Assembly (NCBI GenBank): GCA_024761205.1
Contig: JAMASS010000027.1
Location: forward strand, 25,497-73,196
Source of the DNA: Limisphaerales bacterium
Lineage (GTDB): Bacteria > Verrucomicrobiota > Verrucomicrobiia > Limisphaerales > AAA164-E04
Length of the DNA: 47,700 nucleotides
Direction: 5' to 3'
Part shown: one piece after another, positions 31,841 to 44,693 of the stretch
How positions within the stretch are numbered: position 1 is the first letter of the stretch
Layout: every line of letters starts with the position of its first letter
Translations under genes and position numbers: made by a program
Notes under the pieces: model-generated
Databases searched by the model: none
The model's input: the letters and a program-made list of their open reading frames with translations, nothing else
What the model was told of the DNA's origin: nothing

Positions 31841-32488
31841 TCACAGACCAATGTCGCACCGTTCAAGCGTCTCCAAAATTCTCTGCGCGACCTCCTTGAT
31901 TGAGCCATGACCATCAATGACTTGGATTCGATTTGGCTCCTCTTTGGCAAGCTCCTTGAACCCTTGCTCGACACGAGAAAAAAAGGACTCCCCCGATTGC
32001 TCGAATATATCTTGCCTGAACGCCGAGTCCATCGACGTTAACCGGGCCCGTCGCTCATAACTCGTTGAAACCGAAACTTGAAGCAGCAGGGTCAGATCAG
32101 GAATCACTCCGTCTATCGAGTAATCAATAATCTCTCTTAACCACTCCAGATCCAAACCCCGGCCATAGCCCTGGTAGGCTAAGGTAGAATCAAAGAACCG
32201 CTCACAAAGAACCACCTTGCCCGACTCGAGTGCAGGGCGAATCACCGAGCGTACAAGCTCGCTCCGGCAGGCACTGAAGAGAAACACTTCCGCCTGCGGG
32301 GTCATCAACCCTGACAAATCGGGAGACATCAGAACGTTCCGAACCCGTTCACCTAAGAGAGTCCCACCCGGTTCACGTACGGTGATGACCTGGTGCCCTC
32401 GCCTTTGTAGAGTCTCCGCTAGAATCCGTATCTGAGTTCTCTTGCCAGCTTTGTCCGTTCCTTCAAACGTGACGAAACGCCCGCTCAT
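31841..32488 (-). CDS. tmk: Thymidylate kinase homologue with altered active-site motifs
   Basis: 215 residues, normal length for dTMP kinase, which phosphorylates dTMP to dTDP. The fold signature is clear: FVTFEGTDKAGKRTQIRIL, VITVREPGGTLLGERVR, FLFSACRSELV, and ERFFDSTLAYQGYGRGLD. Three key motifs deviate. The P-loop reads GTDKAGKRT with Arg where GK[ST] is expected. The DR[YFH] motif is ERF. The LID region reads RLTSMDSAF where the family usually has an Arg-containing DRxE. The frame is open and the codon AGA is one base from Ser. It may be a divergent enzyme or an inactive paralogue; a canonical tmk elsewhere in the genome would decide. Confidence 0.85.
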   Translation of the reverse strand: MSGRFVTFEGTDKAGKRTQIRILAETLQRRGHQVITVREPGGTLLGERVRNVLMSPDLSGLMTPQAEVFLFSACRSELVRSVIRPALESGKVVLCERFFDSTLAYQGYGRGLDLEWLREIIDYSIDGVIPDLTLLLQVSVSTSYERRARLTSMDSAFRQDIFEQSGESFFSRVEQGFKELAKEEPNRIQVIDGHGSIKEVAQRILETLERCDIGL

Positions 32489-32555
32489 GAAGAGATCCGA
32501 TCGAAACCCATCTGCAAGTAAAAATGCCTCACCAGCCTCTGAGACATCCTAGCGA

Positions 32556-33509
32556 CTACGGATTGAGATTTGCCGACACCGCTTTCTCAGAGGCATTGAC
32601 CGCAGGAGGATCGTCCGGAAAACGCTCGACCATATAGGAAGCCAGATCCTTAATCTGTTCGTTCGTCAACGGCCCCCCTTGCCCCTTGTGAAATGCCGGC
32701 ATGAGCGTTCCGGCCTTTCCATGGGTAATCCACAAAGTCCAGTAGGCCTCATTGCGTTTGATCTCTGCTTTGGCGACTGAGAGATCGGGAACCATCGTGG
32801 CCCGATGAGGTGTCTCGTGGCAAATGCCGCACGCGGCCACAAAAAGATCCTCCCCTCTCTTTCCCAGCGTCGCGTCATAGTGGCAAGACTTACAATTGCC
32901 CTTAAAAACAGCCTGCCGATCCTTGGCGGCGATCTGCATATTTTTCAACCTCTCACTCATGGTCATCTTGGCGACGGCCTTCTTGGGGTCATACAGATGA
33001 ACTTTAAACGTCAGATGCTTTCGGCCCGCCGAACTGTAGACGGACACAGATTTCGTCAGCGTACCCCGTTTTCCTTTTAGGTTAATCGACAGATTGATTT
33101 GATCACCGTCCTTCGGATTCAATGTCCAGGGTAAATCCGGGCTTTTGGCAAGAGTGCAGCCACACGACGGACGAATCTGCGTAATGGTGACAGGTCTCTC
33201 AGAATCATTGGAAACGTGAAAGAACAATTCGCCCTTTTCGAGACCCGGCTCGGGATAAATCTCCTTAAAGGTAGCATCCCAAGTAAGCGTCTTGTCCTCA
33301 GAGTATTGCGTGTAACGGGTCTTGGTTGTCCGCTGGGCCGTCGGTTTCTTCTTAGATTCGGGCGGACGCAAAGGAGTCTGTACTTGATAAGGAACTTGTA
33401 AAGCGGGCTTCGCCAGCGTCTTCTTTGGCTCCATCAGCTTTTGGCCATGTGCGGCCCTACCAGCAGCTAAAAGCAGCATCCCAACAACCAATCCAGAAAG
33501 ACGTTTCAT
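32556..33509 (-). CDS. Exported DUF1573 and c-type cytochrome fusion protein
   Basis: 317 residues. A signal peptide is evident (MKRLSGLVVGMLLLAAGRAA, cleavage near AHG-Q). A basic, Pro-rich linker precedes a DUF1573 Ig-like domain with the typical PSCGCTLAKS and a region on GTLTKSVSVYSSAGRKH. The C-terminal third is a cytochrome c domain with two closely spaced haem motifs, CKSCH and CGICH, 21 residues apart, and a probable Met ligand in TLMPAFHKGQGG. It should be periplasmic and redox active; the partner is unknown. The ATG at 33509 starts directly at the signal peptide and is preferred over an upstream in-frame start at 33545. It precedes nothing obviously related; cysS is upstream on the same strand. 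Confidence 0.88.
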   Translation of the reverse strand: MKRLSGLVVGMLLLAAGRAAHGQKLMEPKKTLAKPALQVPYQVQTPLRPPESKKKPTAQRTTKTRYTQYSEDKTLTWDATFKEIYPEPGLEKGELFFHVSNDSERPVTITQIRPSCGCTLAKSPDLPWTLNPKDGDQINLSINLKGKRGTLTKSVSVYSSAGRKHLTFKVHLYDPKKAVAKMTMSERLKNMQIAAKDRQAVFKGNCKSCHYDATLGKRGEDLFVAACGICHETPHRATMVPDLSVAKAEIKRNEAYWTLWITHGKAGTLMPAFHKGQGGPLTNEQIKDLASYMVERFPDDPPAVNASEKAVSANLNP

Positions 33510-33573
33510 AACTGATCTTCGTTTCAATCCGACCATACAAATCAATCTACGCTGACGGAAACTCGGTCAAACT

Positions 33574-34989
33574 TCAAGCTCGCTTTACCCGCGGCCCCTT
33601 CGGGGTATCTTCAATAGTCCATCCCGCAGCCAACAATTCGTCGCGAATAGCATCGGCTCGTTGAAAATCCCGCACCTTGCGCGCTACCTGTCGTTCTTCC
33701 ATCAGCGCCGTCACCTCAGCAAGCACCTCAGACGTTGCTCCAGAGCCAACGCCCAAGACAGCATCTACACGTTTCCAGGCAGCCAAGTTAGCCGCCGCCG
33801 CTTCCGAAGTCATTCCGCCCTCGCTGAGATGGCGATTCATCTCTCGGACCCAATCAAAAACAACCGACCATCCCAACGACACATTCAGGTCATCGTCCAA
33901 TGCCTCCCGAAAGGCGTCCAAAAAGGTCGCGCTCGGTTCTGCCGTTACCTCCCGAGCCAGCTCGCTCAATTTGCCGACGCACTCGTCAATCCGGTTCAGC
34001 GCCGACTTCCCGCCACGGAGACCGTCTAAAGTGAAATTGAACGTCTCGCGATAATGAGCGGAAGTCAGAACAAACCGGACTTCCCGCCCGGTGAACCCTC
34101 TGTCCATCAAATCACGCAAGGTGAAGAAATTCCCCAGTGACTTCGACATCTTCTTCCCCTCCACCAACAAATGGGCTCCATGCACCCAGTAGCGTACAAA
34201 CTTCCCTCCAGCTTTCTGCAGTCCAGCACCCTCACTCTGTGCAATCTCATCCTCGTGATGAGGGAACACCAAATCCTCCCCACCCAAATGAAGATCAAAA
34301 CTCGGCCCCAACAACTTCATACTCATGGCGCTACACTCAATATGCCAACCCGGCCGGCCCTCTCCCCACGGACTCGGCCAAAATACCTCGCCATCCTCAG
34401 GAACGCGGGCTTTCCAAAGGGCAAAATCCGCGATAGCATCCTTCTCATATTTATCGTTACTCACCCTTTCGCCAGGACGCATCTGCTCAAAATCCAGCTT
34501 GGTTAGCTGTCCGTAGACACAGCCTAGGCTCTGGTATTTCTTGATACTGAAATAAACCGATCCATCGACGGTAATATACGCAATTCCTTTTTCCACGAGC
34601 TTCAAAATCAGCTCAATGATCGCGGAAACATACTCCGTTGCATGTGGCACCTTATCCGGTCGAACACAACCCAAGGCATCCATATCCTCGAAAAAGGCCC
34701 CCTCAAACTCCGTAGTGTAGTCTTTTAGCGTCGCTCTTGCTTCTCGGACCCGAGCGATGATTTTATCTTCGACGTCTGTGACATTCATCACGTAAGTGAC
34801 CTCATACCCGAGGAACCGGAGGTAACGACATAAAAGATCCGTTAATACGAAAGTTCGGAAATTTCCAATGTGAGCAAAATCATGAACCGTTGGTCCGCAA
34901 CAATAAAGACTAACGGATTTGCCCTCTGCATCCAATGGCTCAAAAACCTCAGTTTGGCGCGACAGCGTATTGAATAGACGTAAACCCAT
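33574..34989 (-). CDS. cysS: Cysteinyl-tRNA synthetase
   Basis: CysRS (471 aa) charges tRNA-Cys. The class I motifs are seen as AHIGN (HIGH box, about residue 40) and KKMSKSLGN. The zinc site is formed by Cys in LYCCGPTVHDFAHIGNFRTF, by WHIECSAMS and by HLGGEDLVFPHHEDE. The C-terminal part contains a DALR-type helical region. The doubled Cys in YCCGP replaces the more common YVCGP. It lies 64 bases upstream of the cytochrome gene but has no functional link with it. Confidence 0.97.
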   Translation of the reverse strand: MGLRLFNTLSRQTEVFEPLDAEGKSVSLYCCGPTVHDFAHIGNFRTFVLTDLLCRYLRFLGYEVTYVMNVTDVEDKIIARVREARATLKDYTTEFEGAFFEDMDALGCVRPDKVPHATEYVSAIIELILKLVEKGIAYITVDGSVYFSIKKYQSLGCVYGQLTKLDFEQMRPGERVSNDKYEKDAIADFALWKARVPEDGEVFWPSPWGEGRPGWHIECSAMSMKLLGPSFDLHLGGEDLVFPHHEDEIAQSEGAGLQKAGGKFVRYWVHGAHLLVEGKKMSKSLGNFFTLRDLMDRGFTGREVRFVLTSAHYRETFNFTLDGLRGGKSALNRIDECVGKLSELAREVTAEPSATFLDAFREALDDDLNVSLGWSVVFDWVREMNRHLSEGGMTSEAAAANLAAWKRVDAVLGVGSGATSEVLAEVTALMEERQVARKVRDFQRADAIRDELLAAGWTIEDTPKGPRVKRA

Positions 34990-35141
34990 ACGAACGCCGA
35001 AAATTTAGGGAATTATATATCTAAGTGCCGAAAGACTTATTGCATTTAGTGCGCCATGTGGCCACGTTTTATGTTTGGAAATCGCATACTTAGCTTGATG
35101 ATCTTCTCAAATCCTAGGTAAACACTGCGAAATTCATTTGC

Positions 35142-35962
35142 TTATTCTTGTGTTCCGTAACCCTCTGTCAAATTGCAATGTCCACAAAGAAGCTGAAAAT
35201 TGTCTACCCAATCCAGACCGTCCTTTGTTCGTGAGAAAATGTGACCATATCAAAAATTGTTTATCCCAAATTCCAAATGGCAGATATTGCAGCGCCCCTC
35301 TTGATCGTTAAAAACTTTGCTTTTTATATCTCTACGCTGTTTCGGCGTTGATGCCATCTCTCTTTCTATGTCGGAAGGATGGGAACGTCCGCGGCACTTG
35401 AAACATCTTGGAATTGAAACAAATTTTTGTTCTCGCTTAAACATTACGACAATCTCTGATGCATTGTATGACAGGTCTACGCCACACCATTGACAACCTA
35501 GCAATTCCGATGCAACTAAAGTTGTTGCACATCCACAAAACGGATCAAACACCATATCACTTTCGTTGGAACTGGTTTTGATGATACGGTCAAGCAATGC
35601 AAGTGGCTTTTGTGTTGGGTAGCCAAGTCGTTCTTTCGATATTGAACTCATAGCATCTATATCTATTCAAACATCGGGGGCAAGTATTGTTTTATCGCCA
35701 AGTGATATTCTTGAACCCTTCGCGTTCTTTGCGTATTCTGGTGATTTTTCAGAGCGACGAACCTGCACGTCTTTAAATTAAATGTGTAGTTTTTGCTTTT
35801 CGCATAAAACAGAATACATTCATGTTTTTTGAGAACCAACTCTTGTTGGCACCTCCAGTTTTGTAGTGCCAAATATTTGGCAAGTTTCTCGGTCTGCTTT
35901 TTGTCGAGTATTAGTTTGGATCGAGGTTTGGTTTCTGGCCGTGGCTTGGCTCCGTCTTCCAT
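35142..35962 (-). pseudogene. Decayed DNA methyltransferase fused to an HNH domain
   Basis: Pieces of an N4/N6-type DNA methyltransferase occur in order. They are NIWHYKTGGANKSWFSK in one frame, then KKHECILFYAKSKNYTFN after a frameshift at an A run, and then PDV-stop-IDIDAMSSISKERL with TGA (35667-35669) at the DVW tryptophan. These are followed by GYPTQKPLALLDRI and DPFCGCATTLVASELLG. The C-terminal HNH part has CNICHLEFGINNF, an in-frame TGA, then DGLDWVDNFQLLCGHCN and a TAA at 35142. The normal DH of the HNH motif is GH here. The N-terminal part with the DPPY motif is missing. Intact relatives belong to restriction-modification or phage-associated methylation; this copy is dead. The 5' limit (35962) is approximate. 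Confidence 0.82.
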
Positions 35963-36013
35963 AACAAGCGTACCTAGTTCTTCCGGCGAGGCATCCCGCC
36001 TGATTTCCCCTAA

Positions 36014-37432
36014 TCAGCTCAAAATTCCGCGCACCACATGTGCATCCTCCACCCCGGTCAATCGCGTATCCAAACCTTGAAAGGGCACCGAGAACCGCTG
36101 ATGATCAATCCCTAACAAATGCAGCATGGTCGCATGTAGGTCTCGCACGTGTACGGTCTTATCGACCGAGTGATACCCTAATTCATCCGTAGCCCCATAG
36201 GTCACCCCGCCTTTCACTCCACCGCCAGCCAGCCACATTGAGAATCCCTTGATATGATGGTCGCGCCCCGGTCCGCCCTTGCCCTGATACATCGGTGTCC
36301 GACCAAATTCACCACCCCAGACGATTAACGTGTCCGCCAACATGCCTCGCTGTTTCAGATCGGTGAGCAACGCCCAAGTCGGCTTATCCGTAAGGCCACA
36401 ACAAGTGTTCATGTACTTAACCAAATCGCCATGGTGATCCCATCCCCGATGATAGAGATGAATGAACCGAACGCCCCGTTCGGCTAACCGCCGGGCCAGC
36501 AAACAGTTCGACGCATACGAACCATCTCCGGGGTTGGCGCCATACATTCCAAGAATGTGCTGTGGTTCATCGGAAACATCCATCAATTCAGGAACGGACA
36601 TCTGCATGCGAAACGCCATTTCGTACGCCGCAATTCGCGTCTCAACTTCAGGATCGCCTAGCACCTGATTTCGATGCCGATTCAAACGATTGATCGTCCG
36701 CACCAGTTTCGCCTGTTCGACATCGGTCACATTGGTAGGATCCTTCACATAATAGACAGGATCCCCGCTGGACTGAAACTCGACTCCTTGATAGCGACTC
36801 GGCAAGAAGCCTGAAGACCATTGTCGGGAAGCGATCGGTTGCGGATTGCGCCCGCCAACGCTCGTCATGACGACGAAACCCGGTAAATCGGAACTCTCCG
36901 TTCCCAAGCCATAATTGATCCACGCCCCCATAGAAGGGCGCCCACTCACTGCGGTTCCGGTATTCATGAATGTGTGCGCCGGGTCGTGATTGATTTGCTC
37001 AGTCACCATGGACCGGACAATTGCAATTTCATCGGCCATCTTCGCGTGCCACGGAAGAAAATCGCTGATCTCCTGTCCGCTCTGACCGTATTGCTTGAAT
37101 TCCGTCATCGGCCCTTGGCATTTCAGCGGCTGCCCCTGCAGTTGGGCAATGGGTTGTCCGCTAGTGTAAGACTCTGGCATCAATTCCCCATGTAAGGTCG
37201 CAAGTTTCGGCTTATAATCAAACGTCTCGAGATGAGAAGGTCCTCCCGCCATGCACAAGAAAATGACTCGCTTGGCCTTGGGCGCAATATGTGGGATTCC
37301 TGACTTTCCAGAACCCGCCAGGCCGTTGCCTCGCAGCAACGTGCCGAGGGCAACCCCACCGAGACTCAAGCCTGATTGATGCAGAAACGTTCGTCGACTG
37401 ACAGCGCGTTGAAATTCACTCTGGCGATCCAT
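36014..37432 (-). CDS. DUF1501 family Tat-exported protein
   Basis: 472 residues. The N-terminus carries a twin-arginine signal (SRRTFLHQSGLSLGGVALG) followed by the conserved start of the DUF1501 fold, AKRVIFLCMAGGPSHLETFD. Further family segments are INHDPAHTFMNTGTAVSGRP, HLYHRGWDHHGD and IVWGGEFGRTPM, then GRDHHIKGFSMWLAGGGVKG, which resemble alkaline phosphatase/sulfatase-type metal-binding surfaces. It is the usual partner of PSCyt/DUF1549 proteins, and lies 18 bases downstream of one here. Function is unproven; a periplasmic role in polymer breakdown is often proposed. ATG 37432 is used in preference to a TTG nine bases earlier. Confidence 0.93.
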   Translation of the reverse strand: MDRQSEFQRAVSRRTFLHQSGLSLGGVALGTLLRGNGLAGSGKSGIPHIAPKAKRVIFLCMAGGPSHLETFDYKPKLATLHGELMPESYTSGQPIAQLQGQPLKCQGPMTEFKQYGQSGQEISDFLPWHAKMADEIAIVRSMVTEQINHDPAHTFMNTGTAVSGRPSMGAWINYGLGTESSDLPGFVVMTSVGGRNPQPIASRQWSSGFLPSRYQGVEFQSSGDPVYYVKDPTNVTDVEQAKLVRTINRLNRHRNQVLGDPEVETRIAAYEMAFRMQMSVPELMDVSDEPQHILGMYGANPGDGSYASNCLLARRLAERGVRFIHLYHRGWDHHGDLVKYMNTCCGLTDKPTWALLTDLKQRGMLADTLIVWGGEFGRTPMYQGKGGPGRDHHIKGFSMWLAGGGVKGGVTYGATDELGYHSVDKTVHVRDLHATMLHLLGIDHQRFSVPFQGLDTRLTGVEDAHVVRGILS

Positions 37433-37450
37433 AATCAACAAATTCTCAGG

Positions 37451-39835
37451 TCAAAATCGGGTGATGGCCTCACTAAGATTCAAAATAGCGCGAGCTGCCA
37501 ATATCCAATCCCGTTTATCATCTACCTGACTCAATCGGGTTCCAGCATCATTCTCAAGCAGAGACCTCAACAAAAAAAGCTCCTCAGGGTCTGGCGCTCG
37601 CGAAAGCACCCGTTCAAAGCCAAACCGGAGCCGCTCACTCTTCGAACTACCCCCTTCTATCAACATTTGCTCCGCCAGCCCCTTGGCCGCTGCTACAAAA
37701 CTCGGATCATTCAACAGCACCAGCGCCCCAACCGGCGTGTTTGAAACCGGCCGCTGCGCCATGCACTCCTCTCGGCTCGGCGCATCAAAGGCAGCCAGCA
37801 TGGGATGCAGGAACTGCCGCTGCCAATGGATATAGACACCTCGACGCCACTGCCGATGATCCTCATGTGCCTCGTAAGTTCGCTTGGGAAAGTTCAAATG
37901 CCGATAGTAACCGGCCGGCTGAAACGGTTTCACGCTGGCTCCACCCACTTCATAATCCAATAAACCACCGCCAGCCAAAAGCGTGTCTCGAATCATCTCT
38001 GCCGGAAGTCGAAAACGAGCTTGTCGGGCGAGCAATTGGTTGTAGGGATCGCGGGCGCGCATCTCAGCCGACTCATAGGAATCCTGCCGATAAGTCCGAC
38101 TCCACGCCATCAGGCGCATCATGTGCTTGATATCCCATCCACTCTCCACAAACTCGATCGCCAGTTGATCGAGCAACTCACCATGCAGAGGGGGCTCTCC
38201 CTGTCCCCCAAAGTCATCGAGCGAGCGGGACAGGCCACCTCCAAACATCAAGAACCACAAACGATTAGCAAACACGCGTGCCGTTAACAGGCCAATCCCC
38301 GATTCAGAATCGGTCAACCAGTTGGCCAAATCCAAACGCGTCACCCGCCGGTCGGTATCCAACATCAATCTTCCTAAAAATTCGGGCACAGCGGGTTTGA
38401 CCACCGGTCCGGACTCATCAAGCCAATTCCCCCGCGGCAGCAAACGGACCGTCCTCGGTTCCACCGCCTGCGTCACCATTACTTTCCGAGCCTCCGAAGA
38501 GAGGCGATCTTTCATCTGCCGGAGCCAAGCCATGCGATCACTCACTGCCGTCTGCTCTGGCTCGCTGGGTCTTGCCTCGAGAGCTTCGATCTCACGCTCC
38601 AGCAACGCCAACACTTGTCGCTCCCGCCGACTCAGTACCTCGATTTCGGGCTCTCGGCGCGTTGGGAGATCATTGGTCCCATCCTTGAAGTGACGTGTTT
38701 CATCCACATCTGCAAAGAAGGCCTGCATTGCGTAGAAGTCCTTACTCGTAATCGGATCGTACTTGTGATCGTGACACTGGGCACAACCCATCGTCGCACC
38801 CAACCACACGCTAGAAACATTTCGCACGCGATCAGCGCCGTAAATCGCCAAGTACTCCTTTGGTTGAACACCGCCTTCGTGCGACGTCTGCAATAAACGA
38901 TTGTAACCGGTGGCAATCCGCTGATCAATGGTCGTCTCCAGCAGGAGATCACCGGCCAGTTGCTCCCGAGTGAATTGATCAAACGGCAGATTGTCGTTGA
39001 AGGCATCAATCACGTAATCGCGGTAAGGCGAGATATTGTGATCCTGATCCCCATGATAACCTACCGTGTCAGCGTACCGCACCAAATCCAACCAATAGGC
39101 CGCAAGCCGTTCGCCAAACTGAGGACTCTCCAACAACGAATCGATCAAGCGTTGGTAAGCCTGCGGCGTCGGCGCGGCAACAAACGCACTTACCATTTCC
39201 CGCGTTGGCGGAAGGCCAACCAGATCAAAACTCAAACGCCGTACTAGGGTCGTCGGATTGGCATCCAACGATGGCTCCAACCCGTTGGACTCCAATCGAG
39301 CGAGCACCCAATGATCGATCCAATTTCGCGGCCAGGTTCCTCGATTCACCGGAGGCACCGGCTTCCGTATTGGTGTTTGATAGGCCCAGTGCTGCGACCA
39401 AACCGCCCCCTCCGCGATCCAACGCTTGATCAGCGCCACCTCGGACTCCGTCAAGGCCTTGCCAGACTCCTCTGGAGGCATTCGATCCTCTGGATCTTTG
39501 GCAGTGATCCGCACCACCATCTCACTCAGATCCGGTCGCCACGGCACAATTGCAGACGAGCTGGAATGATTCGCCTTGGCGCTGGATTCGAGATCCAACC
39601 GGAGATCCGCCTTCCGATCCTCGGCATCCGGTCCGTGACAGAAAAAACAGCGATCCGAGAGTAGTGGCCGAATCTCTCGGTTGAAATCGATCGCAGATGC
39701 AGCCAATGACCGTCCGCCCAAGCTCATCCCGATAAGAGCCGCGACAACCAACAGAGCAACAACCCGAGCCGCAGGCCTAAATCTGCCGCAGGATGTGGAG
39801 ATACCATTCAAAGGATCGATCGGCCTAGCATTCAT
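37451..39835 (-). CDS. PSCyt1/DUF1549/DUF1553 cytochrome-like protein
   Basis: 794 residues, exported: a hydrophobic N-terminal segment (VVALLVVAALIGMSLGG, about residues 26-42) precedes a Planctomycete-type cytochrome C domain with haem motif CFFCHGPD. Next comes DUF1549 (WIDHWVLARLESNGLEPSLD, RRLSFDLVGLPPTREMVSAF). After a coiled region rich in RRERQVLALLEREIEALE comes DUF1553 (FANRLWFLMFGGGLSRSLDD, FGGQGEPPLHGELLDQLAIE). Such proteins are typical of Planctomycetes and Verrucomicrobia and occur with DUF1501 genes. It begins 2 bases after the Rrf2 gene stop and ends 18 bases before the DUF1501 start, so the three form an operon. Confidence 0.94.
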   Translation of the reverse strand: MNARPIDPLNGISTSCGRFRPAARVVALLVVAALIGMSLGGRSLAASAIDFNREIRPLLSDRCFFCHGPDAEDRKADLRLDLESSAKANHSSSSAIVPWRPDLSEMVVRITAKDPEDRMPPEESGKALTESEVALIKRWIAEGAVWSQHWAYQTPIRKPVPPVNRGTWPRNWIDHWVLARLESNGLEPSLDANPTTLVRRLSFDLVGLPPTREMVSAFVAAPTPQAYQRLIDSLLESPQFGERLAAYWLDLVRYADTVGYHGDQDHNISPYRDYVIDAFNDNLPFDQFTREQLAGDLLLETTIDQRIATGYNRLLQTSHEGGVQPKEYLAIYGADRVRNVSSVWLGATMGCAQCHDHKYDPITSKDFYAMQAFFADVDETRHFKDGTNDLPTRREPEIEVLSRRERQVLALLEREIEALEARPSEPEQTAVSDRMAWLRQMKDRLSSEARKVMVTQAVEPRTVRLLPRGNWLDESGPVVKPAVPEFLGRLMLDTDRRVTRLDLANWLTDSESGIGLLTARVFANRLWFLMFGGGLSRSLDDFGGQGEPPLHGELLDQLAIEFVESGWDIKHMMRLMAWSRTYRQDSYESAEMRARDPYNQLLARQARFRLPAEMIRDTLLAGGGLLDYEVGGASVKPFQPAGYYRHLNFPKRTYEAHEDHRQWRRGVYIHWQRQFLHPMLAAFDAPSREECMAQRPVSNTPVGALVLLNDPSFVAAAKGLAEQMLIEGGSSKSERLRFGFERVLSRAPDPEELFLLRSLLENDAGTRLSQVDDKRDWILAARAILNLSEAITRF

Positions 39836-39837
39836 AC

Positions 39838-40254
39838 TCAGATATAGTACATCTCCTGCTCCTGCCTACCAGCTTCGACCATCTGCTGAAAACTAATGGC
39901 GCCAGCCGCCTCGTCCAGTGCCCTCTGTATCTGCGACCAACTTTCCCTTAATTCAGCCGGACATTGCGAATCCGCAGACGGGGGCTCAAAAACCCGACCG
40001 TGAATATGTTGCAACACATCAGCTATGGTAATATCGTCGGGACTCCGTGCCAGCCAATAACCTCCATCCTTCCCGCGTTGACTGCGCACGATGCCAGCGT
40101 TTTTGAGCTCGATAAGAATCTGGACCAAATAATTGTGTGGGATCGATTGCTCCGTAGCGAGCGACTCCACGCGCACGGCCTTGCCCGCCGCATGGTGTCG
40201 GGCCAAGCCAAGCACAGCCCGAGCAGCGTAGTCACACTTTACGGTCAGCCTCAC
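39838..40254 (-). CDS. Rrf2-family transcriptional regulator
   Basis: 138 residues. The winged-helix pattern is clear: MRLTVKCDYAARAVLGLARH, then VESLATEQSIPHNYLVQILI and LKNAGIVRSQRGKDGGYWLA, ending in IADVLQHIHG. IscR/NsrR-type members bind an Fe-S cluster through three Cys in the region before the last helix; here only one Cys is present there (SQCPAEL) besides Cys7, so a classical cluster is unlikely. Its stop is 2 bases from the start of the PSCyt1/DUF1549 gene, so it probably regulates its own operon. Confidence 0.92.
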   Translation of the reverse strand: MRLTVKCDYAARAVLGLARHHAAGKAVRVESLATEQSIPHNYLVQILIELKNAGIVRSQRGKDGGYWLARSPDDITIADVLQHIHGRVFEPPSADSQCPAELRESWSQIQRALDEAAGAISFQQMVEAGRQEQEMYYI

Positions 40255-40589
40255 TCAGCAAAGATAGTCTCAAAGGTTTATGCTCATCAACTTGGAACTT
40301 CAAACCTGAAAGATGAAACTTTGAGCACCCACCGGACTTTGGTTGACGACTCTGTCCGTGATCGGTGTCCCTCAGCCCTCTATCTTCTTTATCTCGGCAC
40401 CAAGCTAGACCGCATGCCTCTACTCATTTCTACTCGCAATGTCGCCTCTGGGCTAGCCCGGATATCTCGCCAATAGAGATGGCCGCCATGAGGTGGACGG
40501 GATTTTGAGGGCTTCTTGAAGATGGGCGGCGGTGGGAGTGGGGAGGGCCTAGGGCAATCCCCATGCTTTTCAGTCTCCCTGCCGTTGGA
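40255..40589. other. 335-base region upstream of the Rrf2 operon with no gene
   Basis: It should contain the promoter of the minus-strand Rrf2 operon, but no clear -35/-10 pair was found. The remainder, up to the first permease remnant, shows no protein resemblance in any frame. Confidence 0.5.
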
Positions 40590-41403
40590 CAATCTTTATT
40601 GGCGAGAAATCCGGGTTAATCTCGTTGGAAAACTGCGGGAAGACGTGACACGGACGCTCAGGTGCAGGCGGAACTGACCAACGTGACCAAGTGTGTCCTG
40701 GCAGCGTTCGATCATCCGCTAAAGTTTGGCCGTTACGAAGAGCCCATCACGATCACACCGGTTCACGAACGGTTGGTCAGGCATGCGAGGCCGGAATTGT
40801 ATCTCCTGTTCGCCGCGGTTTTTTTGTGCTGCTGATTGGCTTGCGCCAATGTCGCCAATCTGCTGCTTGTCCTTGTCGGCGCGGTGGCGGCATTGGTGTC
40901 TTGTTTAATTTTGGGGACTGGCGCCCTGTCTCAGACCTTGCCCTCCTCGCTCCCCCCAGTTAAGTAAGTGCACCATCGACGCCCGAGTTCTGCTCTTTGC
41001 CATCGCCCTTTCGGTGTTGACCACACTGATCTCGGCGCTGAATAAAGGGGATGAGTCAGTGGAAAGTCTGGCTGATCGCGTATGCGAAAACTTTTCGTGG
41101 TCAGCGACGTCGCTCTCACCACAGCGCCACTCATGGGCGCAGGACTGACGATCCAAAGCTTTTGACGACTGAGTCGAGTTGATTTTGGTTTCAACCTAGA
41201 GCACTTGCTCTCTTTCGACTTGCTTTCGACAGGCTGCGATTCAGCCCGAGCGAAGGTTGGCCTCCTTTCACGAGGGTGCCGATCAACTCGAACGTTTGCC
41301 AGGTGTGCAGCGGATGGGAGACATCGACAGCCTGCCTATTGTCTCTCGGCGGCTTATGAAGAGGACGCGGCAATTTCCAGAGTTTACTGGCGTTGTGTTG
41401 TGA
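40590..41403 (+). pseudogene. Decayed FtsX/MacB-like (ADOP-type) permease, N-terminal and middle part
   Basis: Ordered but frame-broken pieces of an ABC-type permease of the acidobacterial-duplicated-orphan-permease kind: VNLVGKLREDV; AQVQAELTNVTK; PITITPVHERLVRHARPEL with YLLFAAVFLCC-stop-LACANVANLLL; TIDARVLLFAIALSVLTTLI; LFVVSDVALTTAPLMGAGLT with IQSF-stop-RLSRVDFGFN (TGA for the family Trp); LEHLLSFDLL; and QLERLPGVQRMGDIDSLPIV. A segment after LACANVANLLL appears deleted. Stops and several frameshifts make it non-functional. The expected C-terminus does not follow on this strand; it lies inverted just downstream. Confidence 0.78.
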
Positions 41404-41436
41404 CCGCGATATTTTGCCTGCCTGCTCCCAGCATGC

Positions 41437-41727
41437 CGTCCGGCTCCTAGGGCGATTCGGGTCCCGAGTTCTTGGATGCGTTGAGCAACGTCATAGGACA
41501 TCACTCCACAACAAAAAGGCCGCGGGCGGTAAGAAAGAATGCCGTTCCGGCGAAGAACCCCATCGGCGCCATGGTGGATTTAGGACGGGCAACGGAACAG
41601 GTTATGACTTCGGACATCATCATGAACGCCGGAATCGGGACATTGCGATCTTGTTCGGTAACGGTGGCTCTCAGGGACCGGGCAAAGTTCAAAGGGTTCC
41701 TTACGTCCGGACAACAACGGTCATCAT
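41437..41727 (-). pseudogene. Inverted C-terminal fragment of an ADOP-type permease
   Basis: On the minus strand: MMTVVVRT, stop, NPLNFARSLRATVTEQDRNV, MGFFAGTAFFLTARGLF, then after a one-base shift VMSYDVAQRIQELGTRIALG with AGR. This is the periplasmic-to-last-membrane-segment portion of the same family (normal pattern GLYGVMSYxVAQRTxEIGIRxALGA). It is exactly the portion missing from the adjacent plus-strand remnant, so both may derive from one gene split by an inversion. Confidence 0.75.
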
Positions 41728-41849
41728 GTGGTTGGGGCACCATTTGCCCCGGGGAAACCGAGCGTGCGGTGTGCGGATAACGAAGCCTGGGAAATCAAAC
41801 GCAAGCGCGACAAAGAAGGCTGGATACCCGGGAACGCGATGCCATTGCC

Positions 41850-42052
41850 ATGAAATTACCCGCACTCCACATCATTCGGTTGTTGATCGCCACAGTCCTT
41901 GCCTGTTAGGTTTCCACCGCCCAAAGCCTAACGTCCACTTCGCTGCTGTCGACGATCTAAGCGATTGAACCGGACGGACACACGCTGTTTCCCCTTTGTC
42001 AAAGCTCGCTACCCAGGCACCGGTATATAATCTTTCGAGGGCGGCTTGCGGG
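41850..42052 (+). pseudogene. N-terminal remnant of a sulfatase
   Basis: A signal-peptide-like start, MKLPALHIIRLLIATVLAC, is followed by a stop; then in another frame PKPNVHFAAVDDLSD, matching the sulfatase opening PNVLFIAVDDLxDW, with TGA at the Trp; then SPLSKLATQAPVYNLSRAA. The last piece aligns with the active-site motif of sulfatases, PVCNPSRAA, but the Cys that becomes formylglycine is Tyr and the Pro is Leu, and about 15 residues before it are lost. The downstream catalytic domain is absent. Clearly dead. Confidence 0.7.
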
Positions 42053-42497
42053 TGCTTGATTTTGTGAATTGATCTGGCAAGATCAATTCGTGGACAATTG
42101 ATTCCACGCTGCATGTTATCAATGAGCTGCCTACTGTTCTTTCAGGCATTGGACAAATGCCTCAGAATCTGCTTTTTTGGGTGTCACTTCTGTGCAGTGC
42201 TTGGGTGAAGCAAATGCCGCAAGTCCTCAGAGTGAGAGTTTGAAAATGGACTTGCATAGCGTAACGAATCAAGTCGGTCATTATGATGGGGTCAAGTAGT
42301 AACTCAGCACGGAATATTTTCACCGAAAGAGCCATGCAAACGAGGGCTTCTCATCTGATCATTCTCTCATCAGTATCGCACTTCAAGGATTCGATTGGCG
42401 GCGGTATATCGTCTGATTCGACACTAGTCCATCGTGATTCTCATGCTCCAAATCCGTCCCGATATCTTTTCCGTTCCGCTTTTACCCACTGATCCAA
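42053..42497 (+). other. 445-base region upstream of the tyrosine kinase gene
   Basis: No protein resemblance was found in any frame. It must contain the promoter of the plus-strand Wzc-like gene, but no consensus pair stands out. It may include more decayed DNA continuing from the sulfatase remnant. Confidence 0.45.
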
Positions 42498-44693
42498 ATG
42501 ATAGATAATTCTTACAATAGTGCCTCTCAAAACGGTCCAATGCCGCCTGTTCGCGATGCCTCCAGAGGGTTTGGCAGCATGACTGAAGAAAAGGCCAATG
42601 CGAAATATTATTGGTACGTCCTGCTTGAACGTCGCTGGCTGGTGATTACTACATTTGTGACGACCCTGGCCCTTGGAGTGATCTACCTCTTCAAAGCCGT
42701 GGCAGTCTATGAGGCCGAATCCATGGTCCAGATAGACACCGTGGAGCCTAATATCCTAAAAGGAACGGAGCGATTGGTCACGGATGTGAGACGGTCTCAT
42801 CTTCTTAACACCGAACAAAAGAAGGTCATTAGTAGAACCCTTGTCCAAAAAGTAGTTGATCAGCTCGATCTCAGAGCTGACCCGCGATTTCGGGATTCGA
42901 ATGATGTCGTCCAATCGGTCGCCGACTCAATCAATGTCACTCCCATCCGATTCACTCAACTGCTGAAGATCGGCTTCGAACACACCGATCCAAAACAAGC
43001 AGCAAAAATTGCCAATACGCTCGTGGATGAATTTGTTAAGCAGAATCGCGAAACCAAGGTAGGAAAACTGGCCGACCTTCATTTTTATCTCGAAGACGAA
43101 TTTCAGTCTACGAAGGAGAAACTGAACATTGCCCGTCAAAAGATGCAGGATTATCGGGAATCCCATGGCACCGTTTCACTGGAGAAGGATCAGGATATCA
43201 CCCTGCGAGCCCTAATCCAAGCTCAGACGGATTATGCCCGGGCCGAAAGTGAAGAAGCTGCGGTTCGGTCAATTGCTGAAGCAATACAAAGCCATTTGGC
43301 AGCGGGCAAACCGCTCGAGACCATCCCTCAAATCGCCTCAGACCCGCAAATTATCGCTCTGCAACAATCCCTAACCAAGGCGGAAGCCCACTTGCAGAGC
43401 CTTTTGGTCACTTACAAAGAAGGCTGGCCTGCGGTGAAGGAACTTAAAAAACAGATTGCCTCACTCAAACAGTCTCTCGCCAAAACTGCTAACGACGTGT
43501 TACCCGCAACGTTACTAGCCGCCGAACAGGCGAAGGCAAAACTAGACAGCCTGGCGGCGCTGGTCAAAGTCCGCGAAACAGCCCAATTAAAACTTAACAA
43601 ACAACGAATTCATTACGATATTGAGTCCCGCGACGCCGAACATCTGTACATCCTCTACAATACCCTCCTCTCCAGACTTGAAGAGGTTAGAATCGCTCAG
43701 CGAAGCTACGCCAGCAGTATTACAGTCGTCGACTATGCCCACGATCCCTTGGAGCCCGTGAAACCCCGTGTTGCGTTCACTCTTCTGTTTTTGGTGTTCG
43801 GCGGCTTGGTCCTTGGGGTGGGGAGCGCTTTCTTTGTCAATTTCTTGGATGACTCGATCAAGACCCAAGAGGATGTAGAAGCCTATCTTGGCTTAACATT
43901 TCTGGGATACATCGCCCGAATTAAGGGCGGAGAAAACTCAGAGCGGAGCCAGGAATCTTTTATTAACCCTCAGTCCGTTGTCTCAGAGTCCTTTCGCACT
44001 CTTAGGGCCACGATATCGCTCTTGCCGAATGGCAGCTCTTACCGAATGATTGCTGTATCGAGCACTAAGTCTGGAGAAGGAAAATCGTTGACCGCTTCGA
44101 ACCTCGCCATCGTCTGGGCTCAAGCCGGCAGCAAAACACTCCTAGTTGACAGCGACCTCAGAAGACCGGCGCTCCATGAAATCCACCGACTCCTAAATAC
44201 TTACGGCCTGACAGACTTTTTGACAGAACAAAAAGATTTTAAGGACATTATCCAATCAGGGCAGATTCCGAACCTGGACTTCACCACATCGGGACCCATT
44301 CCTAGAAACCCCTCTGAACTCCTCAGCAGCGAGAGATTCTCTCAGTTCATCAATGAAGCACGAAGAAACTACGACCGAGTTGTTATCGACTGTCCACCCA
44401 TATCCGCAGTTAGCGATCCGCTCTCGATCTCATCACAGTGCGATGGCATTATCTTTATTTCCAGATTTAACGAGATTCGCAGGGAGCACGCCCGTCGAAC
44501 CGTACAACGACTTAAAGAAGCCGGTGTTCAAATGATCGGAGCCTTGATCAACAACATCAGCGTAGACAATAGCTACGGATATTACTACTCCGACTACTAC
44601 TACAAGCCCTACAAATCAGAGGAGACAGCGAAGAGCGGAAGGGATAAAGAGTCACCCAAAGCCGAGGAAATTAAGGCCGGCACGGGAGCTTAA
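42498..44693 (+). CDS. Polysaccharide co-polymerase / BY-type tyrosine kinase (Wzc-like)
   Basis: 731 residues. An N-terminal cytoplasmic stretch leads to TM1 (WLVITTFVTTLALGVIYLF, about residues 47-65), a long periplasmic Wzz domain with coiled coils (about 66-425), and TM2 (VAFTLLFLVFGGLVLGVGSA, about 427-446). The C-terminal kinase has Walker A SSTKSGEGKSLTASNLA, Walker A' LLVDSDLRRP and Walker B VVIDCPPISAVSD. The tail carries a Tyr cluster (YGYYYSDYYYKPYK) for autophosphorylation. Such proteins control chain length and export of exopolysaccharide in the inner membrane. No export or glycosyltransferase gene is beside it. ATG 42498 is used; ATG 42579 (MTEEKANAKYYW) is an alternative. Confidence 0.93.
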   Translation: MIDNSYNSASQNGPMPPVRDASRGFGSMTEEKANAKYYWYVLLERRWLVITTFVTTLALGVIYLFKAVAVYEAESMVQIDTVEPNILKGTERLVTDVRRSHLLNTEQKKVISRTLVQKVVDQLDLRADPRFRDSNDVVQSVADSINVTPIRFTQLLKIGFEHTDPKQAAKIANTLVDEFVKQNRETKVGKLADLHFYLEDEFQSTKEKLNIARQKMQDYRESHGTVSLEKDQDITLRALIQAQTDYARAESEEAAVRSIAEAIQSHLAAGKPLETIPQIASDPQIIALQQSLTKAEAHLQSLLVTYKEGWPAVKELKKQIASLKQSLAKTANDVLPATLLAAEQAKAKLDSLAALVKVRETAQLKLNKQRIHYDIESRDAEHLYILYNTLLSRLEEVRIAQRSYASSITVVDYAHDPLEPVKPRVAFTLLFLVFGGLVLGVGSAFFVNFLDDSIKTQEDVEAYLGLTFLGYIARIKGGENSERSQESFINPQSVVSESFRTLRATISLLPNGSSYRMIAVSSTKSGEGKSLTASNLAIVWAQAGSKTLLVDSDLRRPALHEIHRLLNTYGLTDFLTEQKDFKDIIQSGQIPNLDFTTSGPIPRNPSELLSSERFSQFINEARRNYDRVVIDCPPISAVSDPLSISSQCDGIIFISRFNEIRREHARRTVQRLKEAGVQMIGALINNISVDNSYGYYYSDYYYKPYKSEETAKSGRDKESPKAEEIKAGTGA

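Follow-up and report, generated by a model that had tools for sequence, protein, structure and literature searches.

Decayed ADOP permease remnants on both strands of a Limisphaerales contig: one inverted gene or the debris of two copies

When pieces of one permease family lie side by side on opposite strands, are they parts of a single gene whose 3' end was inverted, or what is left of two neighbouring genes? This question is raised by a locus in the window, a 47,700-nucleotide stretch of contig JAMASS010000027.1 from a Limisphaerales bacterium (draft assembly GCA_024761205.1, 4.94 Mb in 92 contigs); positions without a contig label are those of the window. The RecA protein of this genome finds its best matches among uncultured Verrucomicrobiota, at no more than 84%. 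We slightly favour an origin from two ADOP copies, with the reversed piece derived from the second. The locus, flanked by a small minus-strand ORF (39838-40254) and a large ORF (42498-44693), comprises the following features.

40453-40618, plus strand: MITE-like element, short form, 166 bp, terminal inverted repeats about 20 bp long
40612-41337, plus strand: ADOP remnant P, columns 227-514 of an 817-column profile (88 rows)
41338-41412, no strand: spacer between P and the candidate carboxy-terminal scrap, no significant ADOP match
41413-41439, plus strand: candidate ADOP carboxy-terminal scrap, columns 796-804, sharing 7 bp with the end of M
41433-41769, minus strand: reversed ADOP fragment M, columns 627-736 of 817
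41770-42497, no strand: stretch right of M up to the next long ORF, in which columns 515-626 and 737-817 are undetectable at significance

The pieces were identified with profiles built from reference ORFs of the same order, initially 67 rows (812 columns) and then 88 rows (817 columns); antisense ORFs among these rows (2 of 67 and 3 of 88) were pruned for the placements described below and are absent from a third set of 98 references. With the 67-ORF profile, frameshift-aware alignment recovers P at 40612-41337 on the plus strand with a score of 170.6 (maximum of 31.5 in 100 dinucleotide shuffles) and M at 41724-41433 on the minus strand with a score of 122.0 (maximum of 22.9 in 100 shuffles), and the 88-row profile lengthens M to 41769. 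A rerun with the 98 references, free of antisense ORFs, returns the same two pieces with scores of 201.8 and 130.1. Consistent matches to the ADOP family TIGR03434 are found in a search of the genome contigs, at 40650-40871 (E 1.7e-8) and 41046-41222 (E 2.4e-10) on the plus strand in P, and at 41507-41701 (E 7.3e-7) and 41433-41507 (E 1.3e-5) on the minus strand in M. When submitted to NCBIfam, two pieces of P are likewise named TIGR03434 (positions 249-295, E 2.4e-8, and 414-460, E 4.3e-10, of 803), as is a read-through piece of M (positions 625-721 of 803, E 7.8e-25). Pfam recognizes neither P piece and gives only a weak FtsX match on M (E 0.0059, under the Pfam cut-off). The region is also matched at E<=0.01 by 65 of the 70 long ORFs taken from relatives' ADOP loci. 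Judged by sequence, both pieces are thus confirmed as derivatives of an ADOP permease gene, with matches far beyond those of shuffled DNA.

The plus-strand, ADOP-type identity that had been proposed for the left part therefore stands, but its proposed end near 41403 does not, as clear ADOP sequence stops at about 41337. Nor was the N-terminal part that it was said to carry found on the plus strand: columns 1-240 of the 812-column profile are absent left of 40625, where 57 of 100 plus-strand and 60 of 100 minus-strand shuffles score as well. The continuation that had been placed just downstream on the minus strand does match ADOP, with its coordinates corrected from 41437-41727 to 41433-41769.

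P carries frameshifts and in-frame stops, and has internal deletions at about columns 309-345 and 397-416; M, which runs up to the beginning of the second FtsX domain, has at least two frame breaks. The best of three pieces scores 87.1 bits against the whole-protein cut-off of 622.3 bits for TIGR03434, and frameshifts and stops are accompanied by the loss of columns 1-226 and 515-626. The region is most likely non-functional, decaying DNA, and a present function is unsupported. An Rfam search of 40000-42600 gave nothing near any gathering score. At the DNA level, 4 of 39 other genomes match 40300-42500, over just 29-62 bases, and no match to this interval was found in three genomes of the same genus.

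Decay of ADOP genes seems to extend across this genome. TIGR03434 has 37 matches in it at E<=0.001 (35 when fewer candidates are scored), among them some ordinary permease-fold relatives, and none exceeds the family cut-off. In a search of 13 genomes that took in the window's own, the only one with matches over the cut-off is the same-genus genome G002, which has five; the contrast makes this genome a small example of gene-family loss. Two further clusters of remnants lie elsewhere in the assembly.

Contig C21, 32406-38257, minus strand: decayed ADOP remnants (locus L109), seven matches, all on one strand
Contig C45, about 91500-93100: decayed ADOP remnants (locus L110)

The C21 remnants, found in a scan of positions 1-59900 of that contig, are interrupted by gaps such as columns 172-395, 384-551 and 489-691. 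A lone ADOP fragment at C21:23943-24113, of 57 aa and with no stops, lies on the plus strand, opposite to the decayed array, and is placed nearest an ADOP ORF of G002. As candidates for the closest paralogue of P or M, the remnants of this genome were set aside: none is clearly close, and the best-scoring ones share just 21-24 columns with either piece.

In relatives, neighbouring intact ADOP genes share one strand: all 44 of the pairs within 3.5 kb are co-oriented (98 reference ORFs; pairs in 21 of 53 loci). As these pairs and the seven clustered C21 remnants are all one-stranded, a neighbour on the opposite strand is probably the derived state, and a strand flip, that is, an inversion event, probably occurred at the locus. 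The inversion in the original prediction, which read the locus as a single gene with an inverted 3' part, is accordingly likely, whereas origin from a single gene is possible. Short inverted repeats had also been predicted to flank the inverted part. None is present: comparison of 41338-41450 with 41725-41850 gives exact inverted matches of at most 6 nt, a length equalled or beaten by 190 of 200 simple shuffles, which gives no sign of a repeat-mediated event. There is one imperfect inverted pair (24 nt, 79%), whose arms at 40993-41016 and 42321-42344 lie on either side of M but far from its edges. These observations led us to reject an invertible, phase-variable segment or an assembly misjoin, which we hold to be very improbable: the strand change itself, and nothing beyond it, speaks for such an origin, whereas inverted repeats would be expected at the edges of M, the 24-nt pair does not lie at the breakpoints, and, with the gene disrupted on either strand, flipping the segment would restore nothing.

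To the left of M, the candidate scrap at 41413-41439 reads FACLLPACR against the profile consensus LACWLPARR, nine residues with a score of 20.7 bits. When any column from 515 to 817 on either strand is allowed, 6 of 400 shuffles and 8 of 449 real window stretches score as well, and 2 of 449 window stretches do so when the comparison is restricted to the plus strand and columns 770-817. In the first test none of 100 shuffles was as good, this being one among twelve combinations of place, strand and column tried; under looser gap costs, 17 of 300 shuffles were. The carboxy-terminal match is thus of only moderate strength as a sequence match. If it is real, the plus-strand gene retained its tail in place, M is extra and most simply comes from a second copy, and the position of the scrap left of M contradicts a simple single inversion. 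To the right of M, a single inversion would leave the remaining 3' end of the gene on the plus strand, and this was not found at significance. For the missing columns 515-817 in 41725-42500, 20 of 60 shuffles score as well as the real sequence; in separate tests right of 41725, shuffles were as good in 95/100 and 11/100 cases on the plus strand and in 65/100 and 93/100 on the minus strand. The figure of 11/100 belongs to the plus-strand test with columns 725-812, whose best candidate lies at 41880-41906 (columns 785-793 of the 812-column profile), and one read-through frame from 41770-42497 has no Pfam match.

Phylogenetic placement of the two pieces gave divided results. On the 88-ORF tree, which was built with the three antisense ORFs and afterwards pruned of them to 85 references, placing P and M separately gains 8.4 log-likelihood units, a gain reached in 7 of 170 same-gene simulations and 61 of 85 two-gene simulations; gains of 6.4-10.4 make up 0.08 of the former and 0.21 of the latter. 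With the 98 references the gain is 6.1; of the 98 simulations run under each model, 10 same-gene and 87 two-gene ones reach it, and gains of 4.1-8.1 account for 0.21 and 0.11 of them, respectively. At a median of 1.7, the simulated pieces are somewhat more diverged than P and M themselves (1.2), which makes the calibration of the test rough. Since the two reference sets lean weakly in opposite ways, placement was not used as decisive.

By the account that we slightly favour, a head-to-tail array of ADOP permease genes would once have stood at the locus, and the region would be debris of that array. The plus-strand copy would have lost its front, so that its left edge now adjoins the MITE-like element, as well as internal blocks, the largest spanning columns 515-795, and probably keeps the carboxy-terminal scrap at 41413-41439. 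M (columns 736-627) would most likely come from a second ADOP copy that was inverted, with both adjoining gene ends deleted. The same-strand arrays of relatives (44 of 44 pairs) make such a neighbouring copy plausible, big internal deletions are common in the other ADOP remnants of this genome, and the plus-strand scrap left of M and the gain of 8.4 with 85 references point the same way. Against two copies, values near the gain of 6.1 obtained with 98 references are about twice as common among same-gene simulations, and the scrap itself is nine residues long, was one of twelve tests and is rivalled by shuffles under looser gap costs. In addition, P and M cover non-overlapping parts of the protein, with M downstream of P, as one gene predicts, an arrangement that a random fragment of the size of M would show about 1 time in 4 by our own arithmetic. 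The two pieces are also equally diverged (1.2 for both, on a coarse grid), so that the earlier remark on their similar decay was fair.

The same two observations speak for the explanation by one ADOP gene with an internal inversion, in which a block from about column 515-626 to column 736 was flipped in place and the flanking blocks, columns 737-817 included, were later deleted or decayed past recognition. This account, while doubtful in our view, has a real chance of being correct. Coverage by the plus strand (columns 227-514) and the minus strand (columns 627-736) is complementary; forcing both pieces onto one branch costs 6.1 log units with 98 references, within the range of same-gene simulations, and the weak tail match at 41880-41906 lies on the predicted side. 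However, the 3' remainder that this account places beyond 41769 on the plus strand was not found at significance, though heavy decay or deletion could hide it, the carboxy-terminal match left of M goes unexplained, and the breakpoints are without inverted repeats. A more complex rearrangement of one gene, in which the middle was excised and re-inserted backwards behind its own tail or two inversions overlapped, would fit the order of P, scrap and reversed M, but it needs more events than either of the other two explanations and finds no repeat pair at the edges of M; we regard it as unlikely.

The left edge of P adjoins the element at 40453-40618, with which its alignment overlaps by 7 bp. A DNA search of the same genome with this element gave 87 matches at E<=10, the self-match and matches to opposite ends included, and at E<=0.01 the models of its two ends picked out 44 left ends and 41 right ends, three or more of these right-end matches being in fact left ends recognized via the inverted repeat. 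It qualifies as MITE-like by its inverted terminal repeats and its numerous dispersed copies with conserved ends; the folds show a terminal stem, the left-end consensus begins CTAGCCCGGATTTCTCGCCAATA, and the middle is GC-rich and variable. Eighteen paired copies, of 159-442 bp, were delimited. Copies elsewhere in this genome (G000) include the following.

Contig C42, 17228-17621: further copy of the element
Contig C10, 93669-94110: further copy of the element
Contig C60, 6857-7232: further copy of the element
Contig C3, 50611-51017: further copy of the element

The left end was found in none of 12 relatives, a set that includes three same-genus genomes, with up to 150 candidates scored per genome. 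Of 11 loci scanned for distant partner ends, L030 has both ends, L081 has a weak candidate with 5 mismatches, and the other 9 have none. The DNA search of the same genome returned solely copies of the repeat element and no relative of the permease part, and no ADOP sequence was found on the far side of the element, left of 40453-40618. It is improbable, in our estimate, that a species-specific burst of the element helped to dismantle the ADOP arrays, with the element setting the edge of P and element-linked recombination making the flip.

Further left in the window, two large adjacent ORFs of 475 and 794 aa occupy 36014-39835 on the minus strand; they resemble a DUF1501 protein and a cytochrome protein of the PSD1 type, which commonly occur together in Planctomycetes and Verrucomicrobia. 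The kilobase at 35001-36000 has a GC content of 0.41, against 0.476-0.563 in the other kilobases listed.

Taken alone, the locus matters little, as an ordinary pseudogene of a known family with a rearrangement; through it, however, a dispersed family of inverted-repeat elements came to light that is present here and undetected in the 12 relatives searched. Like prokaryotic MITEs, the subject of the review PMC10969869, the element is short, has many dispersed copies and carries terminal inverted repeats. The ADOP copies on C21 and C45 resemble P and M in their frameshifts, stops and large internal deletions, whereas the main C21 cluster (32406-38257), unlike the P and M locus, keeps to a single strand. 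Compared with the ADOP family TIGR03434 itself, the pieces follow the family's own order within each strand, but here they are truncated, frameshifted and split across two strands.
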